Below, one piece after another: positions 2,243 to 55,213 of a stretch of DNA of 55,213 nt. The notes beneath the pieces are model-generated. The model was not told where the DNA came from. It was given only the letters and a program-made list of their open reading frames with translations, and did no database searches. Each line of letters begins with the position of its first letter. Position 1 is the stretch's first letter. The stretch comes from Methanomassiliicoccales archaeon (GTDB lineage: Archaea > Thermoplasmatota > Thermoplasmata > Methanomassiliicoccales > UBA472), in NCBI GenBank assembly GCA_035527755.1, contig DATKZX010000012.1, positions 1 to 55,213 of the forward strand, read 5' to 3'. The position numbers and the translations under genes are program-made.

Positions 2243-5200
2243 ATGAACGCGCCATCGAACATTCAAAAGGCGGTCATCATTCTTTTGACCCTTTCATTGC
2301 TCGTCCCTTTGTTCTCCGTACAGACCACTGGAGACGATGGGCGAACGATCATCTACGAATTCCATTTCTCCTCCCCGGACGTAGATATTGGCAGACAAGA
2401 CCGACTTTTCACCGTGAACGGACTCGACCTCGACCCGAGCGCCGGAGCCCCAACATTGCCGGTAGAGACCGTGCTGCTGGCATTGCAGCCCGGCCGACAT
2501 CTGAAGAATGTGGAGGTGGATCATGCTCGCCCATCATCGTTGGAGATCATAGAGAACTATGCTCAGAATCCATGCGAGGCCCCACTGGGCGTCGAGACCC
2601 CGGAGAAGGACATCGTCGACCGGGGTGCCTGGGACCTTGCAGGCACATATGTGCTCGAAGGGGTGGAGGTAATATGTCTTAACCTTCGACCATTGGTCTG
2701 GGACCGGAGTACCGGGGTTCTGACGTTCATTCCTGATTATTCCGTCACCATCGTCACCGAGGCTGACGATATCGAATCGATCGGCGACCTGGACCGCGTT
2801 AGGGACCTGGTCGACAATCCTGAGGTCCTGCCGTACGTTCCGCGCACCACGACCTCCAACATACTTCCGGACGGGAGCTATGATCATCTTATCATCACCG
2901 ATTCGTTCCTGAGCGTCCCATTCCAGGCCTTGGCCACATGGAAGGGGGTGAGGAACGAGCTCGGTTCCGTTCATCAGAACGTGGACAGTATCGTGGTCAC
3001 CCTGCAGCAGATCAGGTCCTACAGTTCCTTGTGGGCCAACCCGACATCGCACAATGGCCAGGGCAACGACACCCAGACACTGGTCCGTAATTTCATCAAC
3101 GCCGCCCACCAGGAATGGGGCGTGAGCTACGTGCTCATTGGCGGTGACGAGGAGATCATCCCCTCCAGGAAGGTCTCTGTGTCCACCGGTGGATACAACG
3201 ATCAGCTGCCCGCGGACATTTACTTCACCGGCTTGGACGGAGATTGGGACAATGACAATGACGGCGTGTATGGCGAGCCATTAGGTACGGGGACCGCCGG
3301 GGAAGAGGCCGATTTGCTGGCAGAGGTGTTCGTTGGCCGAGCGACAGTTTCAAACACCCAGGAGGCATGGAACTTCGTCAATAAGACCATCAGTTACGAG
3401 AAGGGATACGTCAAACAGTACGACAAAGACCTTCTTTTCGTGGGGGAACTGCTTAGCTCAAACCCAGAGACCTGGGGGGGTGATTACAAGGATGAGGTAT
3501 ACAACGATGTATTGGCCGACAAGAACCTCACCCGGACCACCATCTACGAACGGGATGGAACGTTCTCCAATGTAATCTTACTGAACCAACTGGAATCGGG
3601 GGCGCATCTGGTCAACCACATGGGCCATGGCAATTACCTGGGGTTCGCCGATATCAACATCTTTGATGTGATGGGGCTGCAGAACGACCTGCCGTTCATC
3701 CTCTATACCCAGGCATGCATGGTCGGAGGTTTCGATCAAGGGCCAGACACCTCTGACGACTGCATCGGCGAGGAGTTCATCAAGGGAGAGCACGGGGCTG
3801 TGGCCTTCATTGGCAACTCCCGTTACGGATGGTATGCACCAGGCAGCACCGACGGCTCCTCTCAGAAGTTCGACCTCTCGTTCTTCAGCAAGGTGTTCGA
3901 CGATAACGTGACGCAACTGGGAAGGGCGCTTTCCCTATCCAAGGAGGAATTGATCGGTCAGGCGGGATATGCCAATACCATCCGCTGGGTCTATATGGAA
4001 CTGAACCTGCTGGGTGACCCGGAGACCATGGTCCTCAAGGCGGGTCTGGGGACCCACGACCTGGGGGTCGTAGAGATGTCCGTAGGTCAATTCGTCCAGG
4101 GTGTGGAGGGCGAAGTGACGGCGCGGGTGCAGAACATGGGGCAATACCTCGGGAATGCCACTGTGGAGCTCTACGCCGATGATGCGGTGGTAGACACCGG
4201 ACCGGTGAGCCTGGTCCCCGGAGAGAGCGCCTGGGTGGACCTGACATGGACTCCTTCAGAAAGCCGGCAGTACGAACTCACGGTCCGGGTGGAAGGTCTG
4301 ATCGATGATTTCCCTGCCAACGATGAGAAGAGCGTCTTTGTAGTGGTGGACCGCTCGATCTCAGGATACACCATATGGGAAGATATGCACGTGGAACTGA
4401 CCACTGGCCTGTTCATAGGGACCGGGGCCACATTGGACATACGTAACTGCACTGTGGAGTTCTTGTCATCAGGCAACGATTCCCGGGTGATGGTACAAGG
4501 TACGTTGAAGGCCGACAGCTCAACGCTGTACGGTTCCTCATACCACATATTGAGCGACGCTGGTGAGGTGGAACTTACCGGATGCGACCTGAACGGGCTG
4601 TCCACCACCACGCCATCTTTGATCGAGGGAGGGACCCTGATGGCGCTGGATACCACGATATCTGGTGGAATGGGGTGGCAGTTGAACGGCACCCTCGTGG
4701 AAATGACCACCTCGGAGCTGATAGGCCAGATGTCCGAATGGGCGTTCACAAGTTCCGTGGTCGCATTGGACGGTGTCGATGGACAGGGCGGATACGGCCT
4801 TCTACTGAAAAAATCCAGCGGCGCCCTGCTCAACCTCACTTGGTCTGGGGGAGAGAGGGGATTGACCATCGAACGGTGTAGCGGCCTGGTCATGCATGAT
4901 GTTGAACTGATGGGCAACGCAGCCGACCTGTCGATCATCGGGGACATCGAAGCCCATTTCATACATGACGTGGAAAGGGTGAACCTTACCTACGGACCTC
5001 TGGTCATCCTGCATGACCAGGACAACTTGACCGTTGAGGGCGGGACCGGCAGCCTATACCTGGTAAGCTGCCACGACATGGTCGTCAGCGGTCTCCATCT
5101 CCGGAACGGCGGTCAGGGATTGACACTGGTCGGCTCCACCGGTGTGGAGGTGGTGGGGAACGCCATCGAGAACTGCACCGTGGGCGTAATGGCCGTCGAT

Positions 5201-35674: not shown

Positions 35675-36040
35675 ATGAACGACCGTGCCTCGGTTACCCT
35701 GACCAGCCTGGCAGTTTCGTATCTTATCATGGCGTTCGCCGCCTCGATCCTGATAGCCTGGATAACGGAGGATTGGACCCTTTTCTTCCCCGCGATCTTC
35801 TTCTTGAGCGGGATGTTCGCTCTGTTCATCGGTTTCAGGCAGCGCTTCGGAGCTTTAACCAGACGTGAGGGTGACGATGGCAACTACCTCATGTTCTGGG
35901 GAACACTGCTCATGGCCTTCGGCACCATCTGGTCAGTGAACCACGTTTACCCTGGTAATCTGCTGTTCCTGTTCATCGCCTTCCTGGTATGGTTGGCGCT
36001 GGCGGTGTTGCTGTTCACCTTGAACAAGGTACGGCGTTGA
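35675..36040 (+). CDS. Small four-helix membrane protein
   Basis: 121 residues with four hydrophobic segments near 9-30, 36-54, 73-90 and 95-115; loops contain FRQRFGALTRREGDDGN, which is charged and probably cytoplasmic. No family recognised. It follows top6A by 66 bases on the same strand and converges with the DsrE gene 18 bases downstream. Confidence 0.7.
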   Translation: MNDRASVTLTSLAVSYLIMAFAASILIAWITEDWTLFFPAIFFLSGMFALFIGFRQRFGALTRREGDDGNYLMFWGTLLMAFGTIWSVNHVYPGNLLFLFIAFLVWLALAVLLFTLNKVRR

Positions 36041-46367: not shown

Positions 46368-46389
46368 ATGAACGAAAGGTACCGTTCAT
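46368..46389 (+). terminator. Hairpin after the formyltransferase gene
   Basis: ATGAACG (46368-46374) and CGTTCAT (46383-46389) form a perfect 7-bp stem around 8 loop bases, nine bases after the stop. The region that follows is T/A-rich but has no long T run, so a terminator function is only possible. Confidence 0.35.
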
Positions 46390-46565
46390 GTGGCCATTTT
46401 CATATTAATTACTAGTAAGTAAACATACGATATCATGAACAATAAGCCTCGTCTCTCCGATCCAAATAGCTGTATCCAGATGATCGATCGTTCGAGATGG
46501 TTTACCATTCCACGAACGAATGCCCTTTCATATACTCAAAGGGAGCTGTGAACCCAGCCTATCGA

Positions 46566-47303
46566 TCATTCTTCCTTTACTATGGCCGAGGCCTCCGGAT
46601 CCATGGGGTTGGTACGAATGGCCAATGAATACAGGTATGGATGATCGACCCTCAAATGGTCCAAGTATCTTAACCACTCCCTGACCAGAAGTGGGTATGT
46701 CCTTTCCAGATCTTTGATCAGGTGATCGATATCAGACTGAGGTAATTCATCGAATTCGGTACGATAGTTCAATTCATCGCTAACATGGAAAACAGCAAGC
46801 AATAGTTGTGTGAACTCTTGATGTTCTACGAGATTTTGGTTCTCTAAAAGCCCCATTATAAAATCTCGCTTCCCTGCCAGGGCAGATTTAATATCGATGA
46901 GGTCCTCGGTCGTTATTTGGATATCGAGACCCTTTTCTCTCAATTTTGCTATAGCAAACCGGTAATCCTTACCACCCCATTCATAACTTGGTTTTAGGTA
47001 TTGCATCAATTCCATTCGTCTGTCCAAGGAGGATATCTTCCAAACCAACCAAGTACCCAGCTCGGTGAAGAATATGCCGATCAACGTATCGAGCTTCAAT
47101 AACTTGTTGGCCCTATCGCTTCTAACGAGAAGGGATTGGATGATGAGCGTTACCAGAAGTACATTTATGAAAACGAAGGCGAGATTACCGATCAAGTAGA
47201 AGAAGATGCCTCGGATGTCCTGGAATATGATAAAATGGATCAGGTATACGCATACCGATAATGAGATCAGCACGATCCCCAATCTAAATTGCCAACTCCT
47301 CAT
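46566..47303 (-). CDS. Uncharacterised membrane-anchored protein
   Basis: 245 residues. Two membrane helices lie at residues 7-27 and 32-58, then a charged cytoplasmic domain rich in helices (TEDLIDIKSALAGKRDFIMGLL, EFTQLLLAVFHVSDELNYRTE) up to the end. I remember similar proteins in many anaerobic archaea and clostridia that carry no name. A TATA-like AGTATAATG is about 32 bases before the ATG. It is transcribed away from the giant surface protein. Confidence 0.75.
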   Translation of the reverse strand: MRSWQFRLGIVLISLSVCVYLIHFIIFQDIRGIFFYLIGNLAFVFINVLLVTLIIQSLLVRSDRANKLLKLDTLIGIFFTELGTWLVWKISSLDRRMELMQYLKPSYEWGGKDYRFAIAKLREKGLDIQITTEDLIDIKSALAGKRDFIMGLLENQNLVEHQEFTQLLLAVFHVSDELNYRTEFDELPQSDIDHLIKDLERTYPLLVREWLRYLDHLRVDHPYLYSLAIRTNPMDPEASAIVKEE

Positions 47304-47699
47304 TTGAACGTATTAACATGTATTGAACCGCATTATACTTTTTTGGCACGACGCCGGGGAGGTCATGGAGCTGCTTGGGCAATGGACGACTGAAAGAGCG
47401 ATCAACAGTGGATCGAGGTCGATGGCTTAAGCCAAAAAACATTTATTTTATTGTAAATAATATAATATTTCAGCAGGCAATACGATCGCGATAGAAATCA
47501 ATCCGGTCATCTTAATGAACGATCGATATTATATTATATAAAAATAATATATATAACAAAATATTAATATTCTAAATTCTAAAAATTAACTTTCAGAAAG
47601 AAAGATAAATAAAGGTAAGTTGTATAACTGGTTAAAATCTTTGATTCGAAATTCGATTTCTTTTCTGGGTCGGATCATCAAAATCAAGGGGGTATTTCA
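47304..47699. promoter_or_regulatory. Very AT-rich regulatory gap before the giant surface-protein gene
   Basis: About 400 bases without a gene. The stretch 47440-47600 is almost wholly A/T, with repeated ATAATATATA-like boxes, giving several possible TATA elements for the gene at 47700. The ribosome site AAGGGGGT (47686-47693) ends six bases before the TTG start and decides it. A long untranslated leader is likely. Confidence 0.5.
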
Positions 47700-50600
47700 T
47701 TGAAATTTAAATTTGGAAAATGTGTTAGGTCCACGGTTTTCGTGTTAATATTACTGTTATGTGCATCATTAATGATGGTCGTCGCTACGGATAATGCATC
47801 TGCAGCACCAGGCGTCGTCGATCATTATAATGTCACTGTCGGAGGATATCAGACAGCTGGCATAGGGTTCGAAGCTTTGGTGGAGGCGGTGTCCTCCGAA
47901 GGAGACCTCGTCACCAGTGCGACAACCACCGTTCATATTGAATTGTACATCGCCTCGACCTTAATTGATTCCAATGCTGAATTATTACAGAGCGACTACG
48001 CCACTCCAGCGTCAGATAACCAACCGCTCGTCGGCGGTCAGTTGACGCTCTACATTAACGATACTGTGACCGAACCCATATACATCTCCATATCAAGTGG
48101 AGGTGTGTCTGGCGCTAGCGAAATCAATATCATCAACCCTGCGGCGATCCATCACTACATTGTCCTTTCCTCTACCCCGCAAATAGCAGGCGTTGGCTGG
48201 AGCGGCACCGCGACCGCCTATGACGAGTTCGACAACATCGTCACCACCGACAGCACGACCATCGTCACCATGACCGAAAATGGTGATGCGTTGTTCTACG
48301 CAAGTGACTATACAACACCAGATGACACCTACCAGATGTCCGCAGGCGTTGCCACCTTCTACGTGAAGGACACCGTTGCCCAGACGATCACACTTACTGT
48401 AACTGATGATAATTCAATTTCTGCTTTCATCGCCGGCATCGTAGTCAATCCAGCACCGATCGATCATTTTGATGTGACCGTCGGCGGAGCGCCTATGAGC
48501 AAGATGGCCGGAGTATCTTGGATGGAACCCACCAACAATGTCGTGGTCACTGCCCACGATGAATTCAATAATGTCGTGACCATTTACACAGGTAGCCCGG
48601 CGTGGTCTGCCTCATGTGCCGGTACCTTGCCGACCGCACAAGCATTCGTATTGGGCACCCACACCTTCGGTGGAAGCGGATTCAGGCTCAACATCGCCGG
48701 TGCACAGACTATCACCATGACTGATGGTTCGATCAATGGCACCAGTGCCATCATCACCATCACTCCAGCGGCGATCGATCATTACATTGTCCGTTCCTCT
48801 ACCCCGCAAATAGCTGGAGTAGGCTGGAGCGGCAACGCGACCGCCTATGACGATTTCGACAACATCGTCACCACCGACAGCACGACCGTCGTCACCATGA
48901 CCGAAAATGGTGATGCGTTGTTCTACGCAAGTGACTATACAACACCAGATGACACCTACCAGATGTCCGCAGGCGTTGCCACCTTCTACGTGAAGGACAC
49001 CGTCGCCCAGACCTTAACGCTGACCGCGACGGACGTAAATAGCAGGACCGGCAACATCGCCGGCATCGTCGTCCTTCCAGCGGAGATCGACCACTTCACC
49101 ATGAGTGGCTACCCAGCTTCCACTATAGCCGGGGAGGTTTTCGCTAATGGCGTCATCGTGACAGCCTATGACGAGTTCGACAACTTGAAGACCAACTACA
49201 ACGGCACCGTCAACTGGACATCCAGTGATGGAGCTCCGTACCTGGCAGCACTGCCTGATGACTATACCTTCACGAGCGGTGACGCAGGCGTACACACCTT
49301 CGCCGGTGCAGGTTTCGTTCTCTACACCACTGCGTCACAGACGATCACCGTAAGTGATACCAACAATTCGGTGACCCTGACAAGTATCAGCATAACCGTC
49401 AACCCCACGGCGATCGACCACTACATCGTCGCTTCCTCTTCCCCGCAGGTAGCTGGAGTGGGCTGGAGCGACATCGCGACCGCCTATGACCAGTTCGACA
49501 ACATCGTCACCACCGACAGCACGACCGTCGTTACCATGACCGAAAATGGTGATGCGGTGTTCTACACCAGCAGCTCATACGCTGTTGAAGGCAATACATA
49601 CACGCTGTCAGCAGGCGTTGCCACCTTCTTTGTGAAGGACAACGTCGCTCAAACATTAGGACTGAGGGCGATGGACGGAAATGACAAGACCGGCAACATC
49701 ACCGGCATTGTCGTCCTTCCAGCGAATATCTCTGAATACGAGATCGTTTCCTCTACCCCGCAAATAGCTGGAGTAGGCTGGAGCGGCACCGTGACCGCCT
49801 ATGATTTTTTTGGTAACTTGGTCTACACTGATAACACATCAGTGTTCCGTATGACAATAACAGCACCCCAAAATCTTATGTTCTACTCCGACGACAACTA
49901 TACTGGTGGGTCCAATACCGGCCAATATACGCTGTCTGAAGGCATAGCTACATACTATGTGAGGGACACCGTCGCTGAGACAATATATCTGTATGGAATT
50001 GATCTGAGCAACTCTATATCGGATACATCTGACGACATCGTCGTCAACCCCGCGGCGATTGAATATTATATGGTCGGCCCTTCTACCTCGCAGGTAGCTG
50101 GAGTGGGCTGGAGCGGCACTGCGACCGCCTATGACTTTTTCGGTAACATGGTCACCACCGACAGCTTAACCTATGTCAACATGACCGCCACCGGTTCAGC
50201 GGTGTTCTACGAAGGTGACTATGCAACAGAAAATAATACCTACCAGCTGTCCGCTGGTGTTGCCACCTTCTACGTGAGGGACACCGTCGCTCAAACAATA
50301 ACGCTGACCGCGACGGACGGAAATAACAAGACTGGTTACATCTCCGGCATCGTCATCAACCCCGCGGCGATCGACCACTACCATGTCGTTTCCTCCTCCC
50401 CGCAGATAGCCGGAGTGGGCTGGAGCGGCACTGCGACCGCTCATGACGTGTTCCATAACGTGGTCACCATTGACAGCACAACCGTCGTCACCATGACCGC
50501 CACCGGTTCAGCGGTGTTCTACACCAGCATCACATACGCAACCCCTGGTGACACATACACGCTGTCCGCAGGCGTCGCCACCTTCTACGTGAAGGACAAC

Positions 50601-53414
50601 GTCACCCAGACCTTAACGCTGACCGCGACGGACGGAAATAGCAAGACCGGCAACATCGCTGGCATCGTAGTTCTTCCAGCGGAGATCGATCACTTCACCA
50701 TGATCAACTACCCGGCCTCTACTACGGCTGGAGTTGCCTTTGTGGCCGGTGTCACCGTGACCGCCTACGACGAGTTCGACAACGTGAAGACCAACTACAA
50801 CGGCACCGTCAACTGGACATCCAGTGATGGTGCTCCGTACCCGGCATCATTGCCTGTGGACTATACCTTCACGAGCAGTGACGCAGGCGTACATACGTTC
50901 GCCGGTGCAGGTTTCACACTCTACACCACTGCGTCACAGACGATCACCGTCAGTGACACGGTCTTATCGGCGACAAATACCAGTACCAGCATCACCGTCC
51001 TTCCGGCGGTGATCGATCACTTCAGCATTGAAGGCTGCCCAATATTTACTATCGCTGGAGATGGCTTCGATGCTGGCGTCACTGTGACCGCCTACGACGA
51101 GTTCGACAACGTGAAGACCAACTATGAAGGCACCATCAACTGGACATCCAGTGATGGTGCTCCGTACCCGGCAACACTGCCTGGGGACTATACCTTCACG
51201 AGCGGTGACGCAGGCGTACATGTATTCGCCGGTGCAGGTTTCATACTCTACACCACTGTGGTACAGACGATCAGCGTAAGTGACACGGTCGACTCGTCGA
51301 CCATCTCGGAAAGCGATGATATCGTCGTCGGTCCGGCCGCGATCCATCACTTCAGCATGATCAACTACCCGGCACAAACCTATGCTGGCGTTGCCTTTGT
51401 GGCTGATGTAACTGTGACCGCCTATGACGAGTTCGACAACGTGAAGACCAACTACGTAGGCACCGTCACCTGGACATCCAGTGACCCGTACCCGGCATCA
51501 CTGCCTGGGGACTACACCTTCGTGCTCGGTGACGCAGGCGTACGCACCTTCGCCGGTGCAGATTTCATACTCTACACCCTCCCGTCACAGACGATAACTG
51601 TCAGTGACACGGTCGACTCGGCGACACTGACGAGCGCCAGCATCACCATGTTGGTCAACGACCGCCCCATCGACATCGTGATGGATGTCGGAGCGATCCA
51701 ATTCCCAGGCGAATTCGTCACCTGGTGGATGATGATGACCGTGAACGGACAACCGTTCGACCCATCGGGAATGATCGCCACCCTGTACACGCCTGAATTA
51801 AGTTCGATCGACCTGTCCGGGGAAATGTACGGGATCAACCCAGGCTTATGGATCGTTAACTGGACCGTCCCGGGAGACGCTCTGGCTGGCCAGTACACTC
51901 TGGTGTTGACAGTTAACGATGGCTTCAGCTACGGTGGCTCGCTTAGTACCTTTGTGGTCTCCGATAATCTGGTCGATATGGGTGCCAGGGTCGTGAGCAT
52001 GGACGGCAACGTCACCTTGGTCCAGACCGACATCGGTCTGATCAAGCTGAACCTCACTGCCATCAACGCCTATATCGCGTCGATCAACGGAACACTGGTG
52101 ACCATACAGACCGACATCGGCAGCATACAGGCCGACATAACCGCCATCAATGGAAATTTGACAACCATCGAGGGTGACATCGCCACCATACAGACCGACA
52201 TCGGTACCATACAGGCCAGTGTCACCAGTATCAACGCCTATATCGCGTCGATCAACGGAACACTGGTAACCATACAGACCGACATCGGCAGCATTCAGGA
52301 GAACGCCTCCGCAATGAATGCAAGGTTGACAGCCATCGAAGGTGACATCGCCACCATACAGACCGACATCGGCAACATCCAGGTAGATATCGCTGACATC
52401 AACGCTCTACTGGTATCGATAAACGGTACCATAGCGACGATTCAAACCGACATCGGTACCATACAGGAGAACATAACCGCCATCAATGGAAGGCTAACCT
52501 CCATCGAAGGTAATGTTGCCACCATACAGACCGACATCGGTACAATCCAGGTAGATATCGCTGACATCAACGTTCTACTGGTATCGATCAACGGAACACT
52601 GGTAACTATACAGACCGACATCGGCAGCATACAGGAGAACGCCTCCGCAATGAATGCTAGGCTAACCATGATCGAGGGTGACATCGCCACCATACAGACC
52701 GACATCGGTACCATACTGGCCAATGTCACCAGTATCAACGCCTATATCGCGTCGATCAACAGCACCCTGGCGACGATACAGACCGACATCGGTACCATTC
52801 AGGTAGATGTCTCCAGTATCAACACCTATATCGCGTCGATCAACAGCACCCTGGTAACCATACAGACCGACATCGGTACCATACAGGAGAACATAACCGC
52901 CATCAATGGAAGGCTAACCTCCATCGAAGGTAATGTTGCCACCATAAGAACTGATATAGGCACTATCCGGGTCGATATAGCTAACATCAGAGCAAGTGTA
53001 GTATCGATCGAAGGCACCCTGGTGACGATACAGACCGACATCGGCACCATCCAGGAGAACATAACCGCCATAAATGCAAGGCTGACCGCCATCGAAGGTA
53101 CTGTTGCCACCGTACAGACCGACATCGGCACCATCCAGGTACAACTTGCCGCACTGAACACCACGGTTACTAGTATAGAGGGCAATGTGGCCACTATACA
53201 GACTTCACTGGGGACATTGACCGGAACCGTGTACAGCATCGAAGGCAACGTGGCGACCATACACACTGAGCTGGGAACCATGCAGGCGGACGTCTCCGGA
53301 TTAGAGACCGAGACTCAGAACAACAACATCTACACTCTGGTCGCCATCGTGCTATTGGTGATCACCCTGCTGGTCTGCATATATGGTCTGGTAAGGCGGA
53401 GGAACTTCTTCTGA
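47700..53414 (+). CDS. Giant repetitive surface protein: Ig-like repeats, coiled-coil stalk, membrane anchor
   Basis: 1904 residues. A signal peptide (STVFVLILLLCASLMMVVAT) is followed by about eleven tandem domains of 90-110 residues in two alternating types: A, with SSTPQIAGVGWSGTATAYD, and B, with WTSSDGAPYPASLPGDYTF. Both resemble bacterial Ig-like/invasin-type repeats. A different Ig-like domain (about 1320-1425) leads into a stalk of about 440 residues in which IQTDIGTIQ recurs every 28 residues, four exact heptads with Ile/Val at positions a and e. A membrane helix (YTLVAIVLLVITLLVCIYGL) and RRRNFF close the chain. It is probably a rod-like cell-surface adhesin or S-layer-associated stalk. 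The TTG start is set by AAGGGGGT six bases upstream. Confidence 0.9.
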   Translation: MKFKFGKCVRSTVFVLILLLCASLMMVVATDNASAAPGVVDHYNVTVGGYQTAGIGFEALVEAVSSEGDLVTSATTTVHIELYIASTLIDSNAELLQSDYATPASDNQPLVGGQLTLYINDTVTEPIYISISSGGVSGASEINIINPAAIHHYIVLSSTPQIAGVGWSGTATAYDEFDNIVTTDSTTIVTMTENGDALFYASDYTTPDDTYQMSAGVATFYVKDTVAQTITLTVTDDNSISAFIAGIVVNPAPIDHFDVTVGGAPMSKMAGVSWMEPTNNVVVTAHDEFNNVVTIYTGSPAWSASCAGTLPTAQAFVLGTHTFGGSGFRLNIAGAQTITMTDGSINGTSAIITITPAAIDHYIVRSSTPQIAGVGWSGNATAYDDFDNIVTTDSTTVVTMTENGDALFYASDYTTPDDTYQMSAGVATFYVKDTVAQTLTLTATDVNSRTGNIAGIVVLPAEIDHFTMSGYPASTIAGEVFANGVIVTAYDEFDNLKTNYNGTVNWTSSDGAPYLAALPDDYTFTSGDAGVHTFAGAGFVLYTTASQTITVSDTNNSVTLTSISITVNPTAIDHYIVASSSPQVAGVGWSDIATAYDQFDNIVTTDSTTVVTMTENGDAVFYTSSSYAVEGNTYTLSAGVATFFVKDNVAQTLGLRAMDGNDKTGNITGIVVLPANISEYEIVSSTPQIAGVGWSGTVTAYDFFGNLVYTDNTSVFRMTITAPQNLMFYSDDNYTGGSNTGQYTLSEGIATYYVRDTVAETIYLYGIDLSNSISDTSDDIVVNPAAIEYYMVGPSTSQVAGVGWSGTATAYDFFGNMVTTDSLTYVNMTATGSAVFYEGDYATENNTYQLSAGVATFYVRDTVAQTITLTATDGNNKTGYISGIVINPAAIDHYHVVSSSPQIAGVGWSGTATAHDVFHNVVTIDSTTVVTMTATGSAVFYTSITYATPGDTYTLSAGVATFYVKDNVTQTLTLTATDGNSKTGNIAGIVVLPAEIDHFTMINYPASTTAGVAFVAGVTVTAYDEFDNVKTNYNGTVNWTSSDGAPYPASLPVDYTFTSSDAGVHTFAGAGFTLYTTASQTITVSDTVLSATNTSTSITVLPAVIDHFSIEGCPIFTIAGDGFDAGVTVTAYDEFDNVKTNYEGTINWTSSDGAPYPATLPGDYTFTSGDAGVHVFAGAGFILYTTVVQTISVSDTVDSSTISESDDIVVGPAAIHHFSMINYPAQTYAGVAFVADVTVTAYDEFDNVKTNYVGTVTWTSSDPYPASLPGDYTFVLGDAGVRTFAGADFILYTLPSQTITVSDTVDSATLTSASITMLVNDRPIDIVMDVGAIQFPGEFVTWWMMMTVNGQPFDPSGMIATLYTPELSSIDLSGEMYGINPGLWIVNWTVPGDALAGQYTLVLTVNDGFSYGGSLSTFVVSDNLVDMGARVVSMDGNVTLVQTDIGLIKLNLTAINAYIASINGTLVTIQTDIGSIQADITAINGNLTTIEGDIATIQTDIGTIQASVTSINAYIASINGTLVTIQTDIGSIQENASAMNARLTAIEGDIATIQTDIGNIQVDIADINALLVSINGTIATIQTDIGTIQENITAINGRLTSIEGNVATIQTDIGTIQVDIADINVLLVSINGTLVTIQTDIGSIQENASAMNARLTMIEGDIATIQTDIGTILANVTSINAYIASINSTLATIQTDIGTIQVDVSSINTYIASINSTLVTIQTDIGTIQENITAINGRLTSIEGNVATIRTDIGTIRVDIANIRASVVSIEGTLVTIQTDIGTIQENITAINARLTAIEGTVATVQTDIGTIQVQLAALNTTVTSIEGNVATIQTSLGTLTGTVYSIEGNVATIHTELGTMQADVSGLETETQNNNIYTLVAIVLLVITLLVCIYGLVRRRNFF
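48263..48376 (+). repeat. 114-base exact repeat, copy 1
   Basis: Identical over 114 bases to 48890-49003, inside two type-A domains. Exact identity in coding DNA points to recent duplication or gene conversion. Confidence 0.9.
48890..49003 (+). repeat. 114-base exact repeat, copy 2
   Basis: Exact copy of 48263-48376, 627 bases downstream; the interval spans one A plus one B-like domain, so the pair may have been duplicated together. Confidence 0.9.
51985..53316 (+). repeat. 84-base (28-residue) coiled-coil coding repeats
   Basis: Sixteen or so units each include ACAGACCGACATCGG or a close variant. Two blocks alternate, one ending in INAYIASINGTL and another in INGRLTSIEGNV; later units (from about 53150) diverge. 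The period is 84 bases, four heptads. Confidence 0.9.
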
Positions 53415-53613: not shown

Positions 53614-53650
53614 TGGTGCTTCCGTCGGGATTTGAACTCGGGTAGGGGCC
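53614..53650 (-). pseudogene. Decayed tRNA 3' end with encoded CCA (copy 1)
   Basis: The reverse strand reads CCCGAGTTCAAATCCCGACGG then AAGCACCA: a T loop (TTCAAAT), an acceptor 3' strand, discriminator A and encoded CCA. The T stem no longer pairs well, and no 5' half follows. Its first 19 bases match copy 2 at 54930 with one mismatch, making a direct repeat that brackets the EamA gene. Confidence 0.65.
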
Positions 53651-53810
53651 AGGTATTCCATTCTTAAATTACAATATAATAATATTTCTCATATTAATTG
53701 AAATCCGAACCTGTAAATGTTAATGACCACTTTATATTTGTTTAAGAAATAATTTTTCTATGGGCTTTGGGATTGGAAAAGAACATAAATGCCATCTATA
53801 TTGACACGCC

Positions 53811-54686
53811 ATGAAACGGGGCCCCATATTGCTCGTTCTTATCGCGGGTACGCTTTTCGGTCTTTGCGTGCCTTTCTCAAAGGCGCTGATCGGTGAAATG
53901 GAACCGATAATGTTAGCCGGGTTCCTATATGCTGGAGCGACGGTTGGTACGGGAACTTGGTTCTTATTAAGACGCGGGATGGCTCCGCCACCACCATCGG
54001 CTCCGATGGGCCGCTCCGGCGTGCTTTACCTGACCGGCAGCACATTTATCGGGGCCATCGTCGCCCCCATCCTACTGCTGGTAGGATTGGCATGGACCGC
54101 GGGGTCCGATGCATCCCTGCTGCTCAATCTGGAAGGGGTGATGACCGCGATCGTCGCGGTGGCATTTTTCCGCGACAAGGGCGGATATCGACTTTGGATC
54201 GCCCTCGCAGCGATGACGGTCGCGAGCGCCATTTTGTCATATACTCCGGGTGGGGGGTTCGGTGGCAACGGGGCTGTGCTGATCATCTTAGCCATGGTGT
54301 GTTGGGGCATCGATAATAACTTCATGCAGAAGATCTCGCACCACGACCCTGTCAAGCTATCGACGATCAGAAGCGCGGCGGCAGCGACCGTCTCGCTGAC
54401 ATTGGCTGTCATTCTTTATGGTGGGCCGGAGCTGACCTTGGTGATAATTTATGCGATGCTCATCGGATCCATAAGCTACGGACTAAGCAATGTCATGTTC
54501 TTCATCGGGTTGAAGTATCTGGGATCAAGCCGTACCGGAACTTTTTTCTCCATCGGTCCGTACGCCGCGGCCATGGCGGCTATTCCACTGTTGGGGGAAT
54601 CGGTCACGGGAAAGCTTGTCTTAGCCGGTGTATTGATGCTCGCGGGCACCTTATTTCTGACCAGCGAAAAGCATGCCCGTACGTGA
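53811..54686 (+). CDS. EamA (DMT-family) transporter
   Basis: 291 residues with ten predicted membrane helices in two EamA halves. LVLIAGTLFGLCVPFSKALIG opens the first half, and ILAMVCWGIDNNFMQKIS the second; SRTGTFFSIGPYAAAMAAIPLLGES is the conserved late region. It probably moves a small metabolite or amino acid across the membrane. A TATA-like ACATAAAT (53783-53790) places transcription start near the ATG. The gene sits between two tRNA-end repeats in AT-rich DNA. Confidence 0.93.
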   Translation: MKRGPILLVLIAGTLFGLCVPFSKALIGEMEPIMLAGFLYAGATVGTGTWFLLRRGMAPPPPSAPMGRSGVLYLTGSTFIGAIVAPILLLVGLAWTAGSDASLLLNLEGVMTAIVAVAFFRDKGGYRLWIALAAMTVASAILSYTPGGGFGGNGAVLIILAMVCWGIDNNFMQKISHHDPVKLSTIRSAAAATVSLTLAVILYGGPELTLVIIYAMLIGSISYGLSNVMFFIGLKYLGSSRTGTFFSIGPYAAAMAAIPLLGESVTGKLVLAGVLMLAGTLFLTSEKHART

Positions 54687-54929
54687 TGGAAAGACCTTAT
54701 GGTGCGACCCAAACTGACATGATATGTGCAAGACCACCACGGCCGGGGAATTGGAACGAACAAAGTCCGACGAATAAGATAATTACATTTCCCGGAAGCG
54801 CTTGGTATGGCGTTCGGTCAGGACCATTTCATTCGTATCCTTATTTCCGTCGAAGGGACCCTGCTCAGTCAGATTGGTTATGGAACGAACAGTAAAGAAG
54901 AAAAGAACGCATGTTCAGAATTGTTTGAA

Positions 54930-54954
54930 TGGTGCTCCCGTCGGGATTCTAACC
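54930..54954 (-). pseudogene. Decayed tRNA 3' end with encoded CCA (copy 2)
   Basis: The reverse strand reads GGTTAGAATCCCGACGGGAGC followed by ACCA: a T-arm end, acceptor 3' strand CGGGAGC, discriminator A and CCA. The rest of the tRNA is absent and replaced by A/T-rich DNA. Confidence 0.65.
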
Positions 54955-54961
54955 ATTTTTT

Positions 54962-54988
54962 TACTGGTAAAATTACCGGTATTTTTTT
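54962..54988 (+). terminator. Strong hairpin-T-run structure
   Basis: TACTGGTAA (54962-54970) pairs with TTACCGGTA (54973-54981) with one G-T pair and a 2-base gap, followed by seven Ts. It looks like an intrinsic terminator of the bacterial kind for forward transcripts, directly beside the tRNA-end remnant. Confidence 0.55.
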
Positions 54989-55213
54989 ATGCCAGTATTT
55001 TATTAACGGTGTTTACTAAATTAAGAACATTCTAATACTATAATCATAGATATTTCCATATATAATATTTATATTTTGCTTAAATGTGGAAGGTCATATC
55101 GGAATTTTTCAGTCTTTACGAATCTAGCAAAAGAGAATGAACTGCATTGCGTCATTGAATGAAATAGAATGGAATCTGCGTTATCGTTGTATAAGTCTTT
55201 CAGAGTCTATTGA

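Follow-up and report, generated by a model that had tools for sequence, protein, structure and literature searches.

Near the right end of the window, i.e., the whole 55,213-nucleotide stretch of Methanomassiliicoccales DNA analyzed here (contig C12), two short direct repeats enclose the gene of an EamA-family transporter, raising the question of what these repeats are and whether the gene between them arrived with them. On the best reading of the arrangement, a tyrosine-integrase island entered the 3' end of tRNA-Glu(CTC); the right-hand repeat (R2) would then be attL, and the left-hand repeat (R1) most likely the scar of an earlier island. We assign this reading a probability of about 0.85. 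Two puzzling repeats are thereby turned into a mapped island insertion, with a named integration module, in a Methanomassiliicoccales species known from its genome.

Identity of the repeats

The two copies, TGGTGCTTCCGTCGGGATT (R1, 53614-53632) and TGGTGCTCCCGTCGGGATT (R2, 54930-54948), both given on the + strand of the window, are identical at 18 of 19 positions; the coordinates, the direct orientation, and the single mismatch first reported for them are correct. Matches to the 19-mer with three or fewer mismatches number two in the window, R1 and R2 themselves, against 0.06 expected from shuffles. Genome-wide (26 contigs, 1.68 Mb), the same threshold returns five, including (i) R1, (ii) R2, (iii) a third copy, R3 (C7:2250, - strand), (iv) tRNA-Glu(CTC) at C17:722-797, and (v) tRNA-Glu(TTC) at C9:291-391. 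Each close match is a tRNA-Glu gene or a fragment of one, and the full-length matches to the fragments are tRNA-Glu genes only. The earlier observation that the reverse strand of both repeats reads as a tRNA 3' end with CCA can now be made specific, the tRNA being tRNA-Glu(CTC), and the genome search for an intact tRNA with this 3' end, suggested at the same time, leads to C17:722-797.

All three fragments begin at the same tRNA base. R1 agrees with the intact tRNA-Glu gene at 27 of 30 positions over ca. 30 nt, with three differences, whereas R2 is identical (19/19) to the tRNA-Glu(CTC) that relatives in the same genus encode with CCA, the identity ending at 19 nt, and shares a core (17/17) with the tRNA-Glu(CTC) of its own genome. 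ARAGORN calls neither R1 nor R2 as a complete tRNA, and an Rfam search of the region was empty. The features of this part of the window are as follows:

47700 to 53414, + strand: repetitive adhesin-like surface protein, the left neighbor of R1; the start of an orthologue is found in G001, contig C14
53614 to 53643, - strand: R1, an older, decayed tRNA-Glu 3' end with CCA, probably the attL scar of an earlier island
53811 to 54686, + strand: EamA-family transporter gene (PF00892, E=2e-25), an accessory gene of the tRNA-Glu(CTC) site
54930 to 54948, - strand: R2, the displaced tRNA-Glu(CTC) 3' end with its native encoded CCA, read as attL from its match to the relatives' gene and the regenerated gene at C17:722-797
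54932 to 54948: crossover core of 17 bp, common to R2 and the C17 gene

R3 lies on another contig of the same genome (C7, 1-2268) and is a tRNA-Glu 3' fragment of ca. 40 nt, of the CTC type and with CCA, beside an adhesin-like gene; the 3' end of this gene is matched at 96% in G001, a few hundred bp from the G001 tRNA-Glu(CTC), and represents a different place. A match on contig 27 of G003, with two mismatches, was rejected as a scar: its tRNA identity stops at the 19-mer, and it is probably due to chance.

A probable split tRNA-Glu(CTC) locus

The intact tRNA-Glu(CTC) gene is located at the left end of C17, another contig of the same genome. Comparison with the sister species G001 discloses 94% identity of the C17 right flank over 10.2 kb, the match beginning precisely with the 17-bp core, whose first base is 722, and C17:1-721 displays no counterpart in G001. 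The DNA 5' of tRNA-Glu(CTC) in relatives matches C17, and the DNA 3' of it in G003, G005, and G008 comprises the genes found at 45-46 kb in the window. G003 and G005 each carry, on one contig, tRNA-Glu(CTC) with the left-flank genes of the window on one side and the C17 right flank on the other, a flank order with which C12 and C17 agree; on this comparison, C12 and C17 appear to be the halves of a single tRNA-Glu(CTC) locus interrupted by inserted DNA. We infer the physical link between the two contigs, which are unjoined in the assembly, a gap standing where Islander calls for a continuous island of 2-200 kb on one replicon. Two of the features by which Islander recognizes such insertions are present, namely a displaced fragment of a tRNA gene of the same genome (R2) and an intact regenerated tRNA gene at the other end (C17:722-797). 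R2 is the displaced 3' end (attL) of tRNA-Glu(CTC) and marks one junction of the island. The original prediction of integration footprints at a tRNA gene is supported by the matching intact gene and by the homology breakpoint at the core.

Proposed island ends and the integrase module

Two further features lie beyond R2:

54949 to 55213, no strand: left end of the integrated island, which ends with the contig; 54929-54987 is 76% identical over 59 bp to the attL core and arm of G011
54960 to 54972, + strand: TTTACTGGTAAAA, a putative integrase arm site, a 13-bp repeat unique in the window and repeated beside the core on the C17 left arm

The element TTTACTGGTAAAA is found beside the core at both proposed island ends, and none of 3000 dinucleotide shuffles reaches such a 13-bp repeat. 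On C17, positions 79-675 code for a 198-aa protein, followed at the contig edge by ca. 29 codons; these align to the beginning of a recombinase of 331 aa that comprises PF00589 and a phage-integrase N-terminal domain. The suspicion that a larger element extends to the right is thus borne out, the element running beyond 54.95 kb, with an integrase gene start at its other end on C17. These first ca. 29 codons represent the integrase gene in its own genome, the full gene standing beside tRNA-Glu in relatives; the rest of it was not found in the assembled genome. The single PF00589 match of the genome (C13, 402 aa) was rejected as the missing integrase, being a different recombinase.

In all other genomes found to carry it, the 198-aa gene immediately follows the 3' end of tRNA-Glu; these cases comprise eight public-collection loci, labeled Methanomassiliicoccales, Methanomethylophilaceae, or Euryarchaeota, and G014. 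The recombinase gene comes next wherever the contig extends far enough; in two of these contigs (L132 and L134), it is truncated at the contig end or falls outside the contig. The predicted structure of the 198-aa protein comprises a long helix and a winged-helix-like C-terminus, with a low pTM (0.38), and Foldseek returned no significant match to it; our guess is that the protein may serve as an accessory factor. Viral contigs scanned for attP-like cores, the 198-aa protein, and the integrase gave no match, and phage records contributed, among the matches listed, distant recombinases only, with less than 30% identity.

Proposed course of insertion

From this arrangement we infer the enzymatic steps of integration. 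The target would have been the 3' end of tRNA-Glu(CTC), which a tyrosine-integrase island entered through a crossover inside the 17-bp core GTGCTCCCGTCGGGATT (+ orientation of the window). The last 19 bases of the gene itself, CCA included, would have been displaced to the far end of the island, where they form R2 (54930-54948), the gene being rebuilt at the near end (C17:722-797) with a 3' flank supplied by the island. The island itself would run from 54949 off the contig end, through an unassembled stretch, and into C17:1-721 with the 198-aa and integrase genes. An earlier island at the same tRNA may have left R1, its remains being the EamA gene and AT-rich DNA.

History of R1 and the EamA gene

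Among 31 genomes, an EamA orthologue passes the applied threshold in G002, G003, and G009 only, with nothing beyond 42-43% relatives elsewhere; each time, the gene adjoins tRNA-Glu(CTC) or its displaced end as the left neighbor. Its divergence (73-76%) is in step with that of the neighboring NadE (78-81%). R1 was not seen in other genomes and is absent upstream of EamA in G002, G003, and G009. The interval between R1 and R2 holds neither a partner att nor an integrase among its ORFs, the latter as originally noted, and so neither the partner end nor the integrase remnant that would mark R1 as an older scar is present there; the right arm of R1 displays no clear match to that of R2.

With each further integration at one tRNA, the older scars come to lie farther from it. 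R1 is both more decayed than R2 (27/30 versus 19/19) and further out, as such a series predicts, and is most likely an older scar, the displaced 3' end from an earlier island at the same tRNA. The EamA gene could be the remaining cargo of that older island or could be a resident gene, its divergence being roughly that expected under vertical inheritance; the island beginning at 54949 does not include it as cargo.

We consider it unlikely, if far from negligible, that only R2 records an insertion, as attL, with R1 an unrelated tRNA-Glu pseudogene fragment or product of rearrangement and EamA a long-standing resident beside tRNA-Glu. The position of EamA directly to the left of the tRNA-Glu(CTC) site in G002, G003, and G009, without R1, and the parallel with NadE would suit such a history; nevertheless, the first base common to R1, R2, and R3, together with the CCA carried by R1, is more easily explained by displaced 3' ends than by random pseudogenes, and three remnants in one genome point to repeated integration.

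Considerably less probable is the arrangement first proposed, in which a single small element carries EamA and is bounded by R1 and R2. It draws on the two direct repeats, with a spacing of 1.3 kb, and on the patchy distribution of EamA in the genus. However, both repeats are of the attL type, in the same orientation, and R2 has a partner of its own in the regenerated tRNA and integrase module on C17; with R1 most likely an older scar, the reading of the two as ends of a single element is therefore not supported. In addition, a tRNA-targeted island needs an intact tRNA at one end and neither R1 nor R2 is one, the repeats differ in the length of their tRNA identity and in their right arms, and the interval is devoid of an integrase.

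Encoded CCA

The fragments were originally contrasted with the tRNA-Asp of the window, which has no encoded CCA, and were suspected to contain foreign tRNA sequence. The tRNA-Asp does lack an encoded CCA; the contrast is nonetheless uninformative, about half of the ca. 30 tRNA genes examined in this genome (loci L006-L035) encoding CCA, including Val-CAC, Gln-TTG, Leu-GAG, and Phe. According to a passage of one study, a considerable proportion of archaeal pre-tRNAs encode CCA (PMC7479834). At the same locus, tRNA-Glu(CTC) carries an encoded CCA in the same-genus genomes G001, G002, G003, G006, G007, and G008; both intact tRNA-Glu genes of the genome under study (CTC and TTC) are without a full encoded CCA. 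Because many tRNAs of the genome and the tRNA-Glu of its relatives encode CCA, that of the fragments is native, and integration took it from the regenerated gene. The direction is opposite to the one first suggested, the fragment bearing the native end and the intact gene that of the island. The core ends inside CCA, and therefore the restored tRNA-Glu(CTC) gene ends in GAGCAC-TTTTTT, with no CCA encoded, and the displaced end retains it. An island is thus able to change whether a tRNA gene encodes CCA, although other routes of loss are possible, since G005 displays a tRNA-Glu(CTC) without CCA and without sign of an island.

Relation to known systems

A displaced tRNA end is a standard mark of an island junction (PMC4383910; PMC9897764), and the type of event is already well known; less usual are two points, namely that integration removes the encoded CCA and that the integrase has a 198-aa partner. 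The locus resembles the tRNA-integrated islands collected by Islander (Hudson et al. 2014, PMC4383910) in showing a displaced fragment at one end and, at the other, a regenerated tRNA with the start of a tyrosine integrase gene beside it; it differs from them in that the two ends lie on separate contigs, with the body unassembled, and in that the core stops inside CCA, so that the regenerated gene loses its encoded CCA. Compared to the partial tRNA genes that integrative elements have left in Thermococcaceae, such as those of island PYG1 in tRNA-Gln of Pyrococcus yayanosii, whose repeats are 44 bp long (PMC9897764), the core is 17 bp here, and the tRNA has multiple scars on the same side. The recombinase belongs to the same fold family (PF00589) as the XerA-kind archaeal tyrosine recombinases (sequence match to structure 5hxy, E=3e-14), but its gene stands beside tRNA-Glu with a 198-aa partner, which suggests the behavior of an island integrase and not of a chromosome-dimer resolvase. 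Elements of the SSV type have the att site inside the integrase gene, whereas here the core is separated from the integrase gene by the 198-aa gene.

tRNA-Glu as a landing site in other genomes

G011, from another genus of the same family, displays the complete island layout on a single contig (47), comprising a displaced end (22091) that bears CCA and is accompanied by a homologous arm, ca. 13.6 kb of DNA, and an intact tRNA-Glu(TTC) without CCA (35718-35819). The interval contains a corrinoid methyltransferase set, a transposase, and a metal-transporting ATPase, and a search of it for an integrase recognized none; by the searches made, this is an island that has kept its cargo and has no integration gene. 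G009 carries a truncated, CCA-bearing tRNA-Glu end right after EamA, and the homology between C7 and G001 also stops at the tRNA core, the sequence beyond being different. The G011 island, the G009 end, and the C7 breakpoint thus make tRNA-Glu a repeated landing site in this group. Tentatively, and at somewhat less than even odds, this may extend to both tRNA-Glu genes of the order as repeated landing sites for islands with the two-gene module (198-aa protein and tyrosine recombinase) and an attP that ends inside CCA, each integration stripping CCA and swapping the native trailer for a T-rich one from the island. If so, the 3'-end maturation of an essential tRNA would depend on island DNA and on CCA addition.

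The contigs of several relatives break at tRNA-Glu, and repeated insertion may account for how frequent such breaks are in these genomes. These breaks and the position of the repeat near a contig end could also speak for an assembly artefact, a short repeat having joined unrelated sequences at 54930; this is very improbable, given that the contig runs 265 bp past R2, that the stretch after R2 is homologous to the attL arm in the independent assembly of G011, and that R2 is below the usual assembly overlap size. That the fragments are functional tRNA-like RNA elements (e.g., processing or termination signals), for which the conserved 3' end with CCA and its recurrence in the family might speak, can be practically set aside, given the lack of a covariance-model match, the missing partner half of the acceptor stem, positions that differ between relatives, with R1 absent at the same place in close ones, and the homology break exactly at the core.

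Further observations

On contig 2 of G046 (L188, ca. 3865-3965), an intact tRNA-Glu(CTC) is accompanied, 100 bp from its 3' end, by a 3' fragment of tRNA-Glu, which is another possible scar. On contig 6 of G003 (L147, 18000-37900), the tRNA-Glu(TTC) module is adjoined by Hma-like genes (helicase, methylase, and ATPase, by PADLOC), and the same stretch comprises genes for an ankyrin-PIN-HTH protein and a viperin-like radical SAM protein; no outer boundary of this island was located. With a defense-like cluster of Hma-like and viperin-like genes adjoining the module, such sites are worth scanning for cargo.

In the left flank of the window, a low-GC segment of ca. 1 kb (46383-47412) is absent from the sister genome G001 (contig 14), and the adhesin-like gene displays 84-bp tandem coding repeats in its coiled-coil part (52500-53298).
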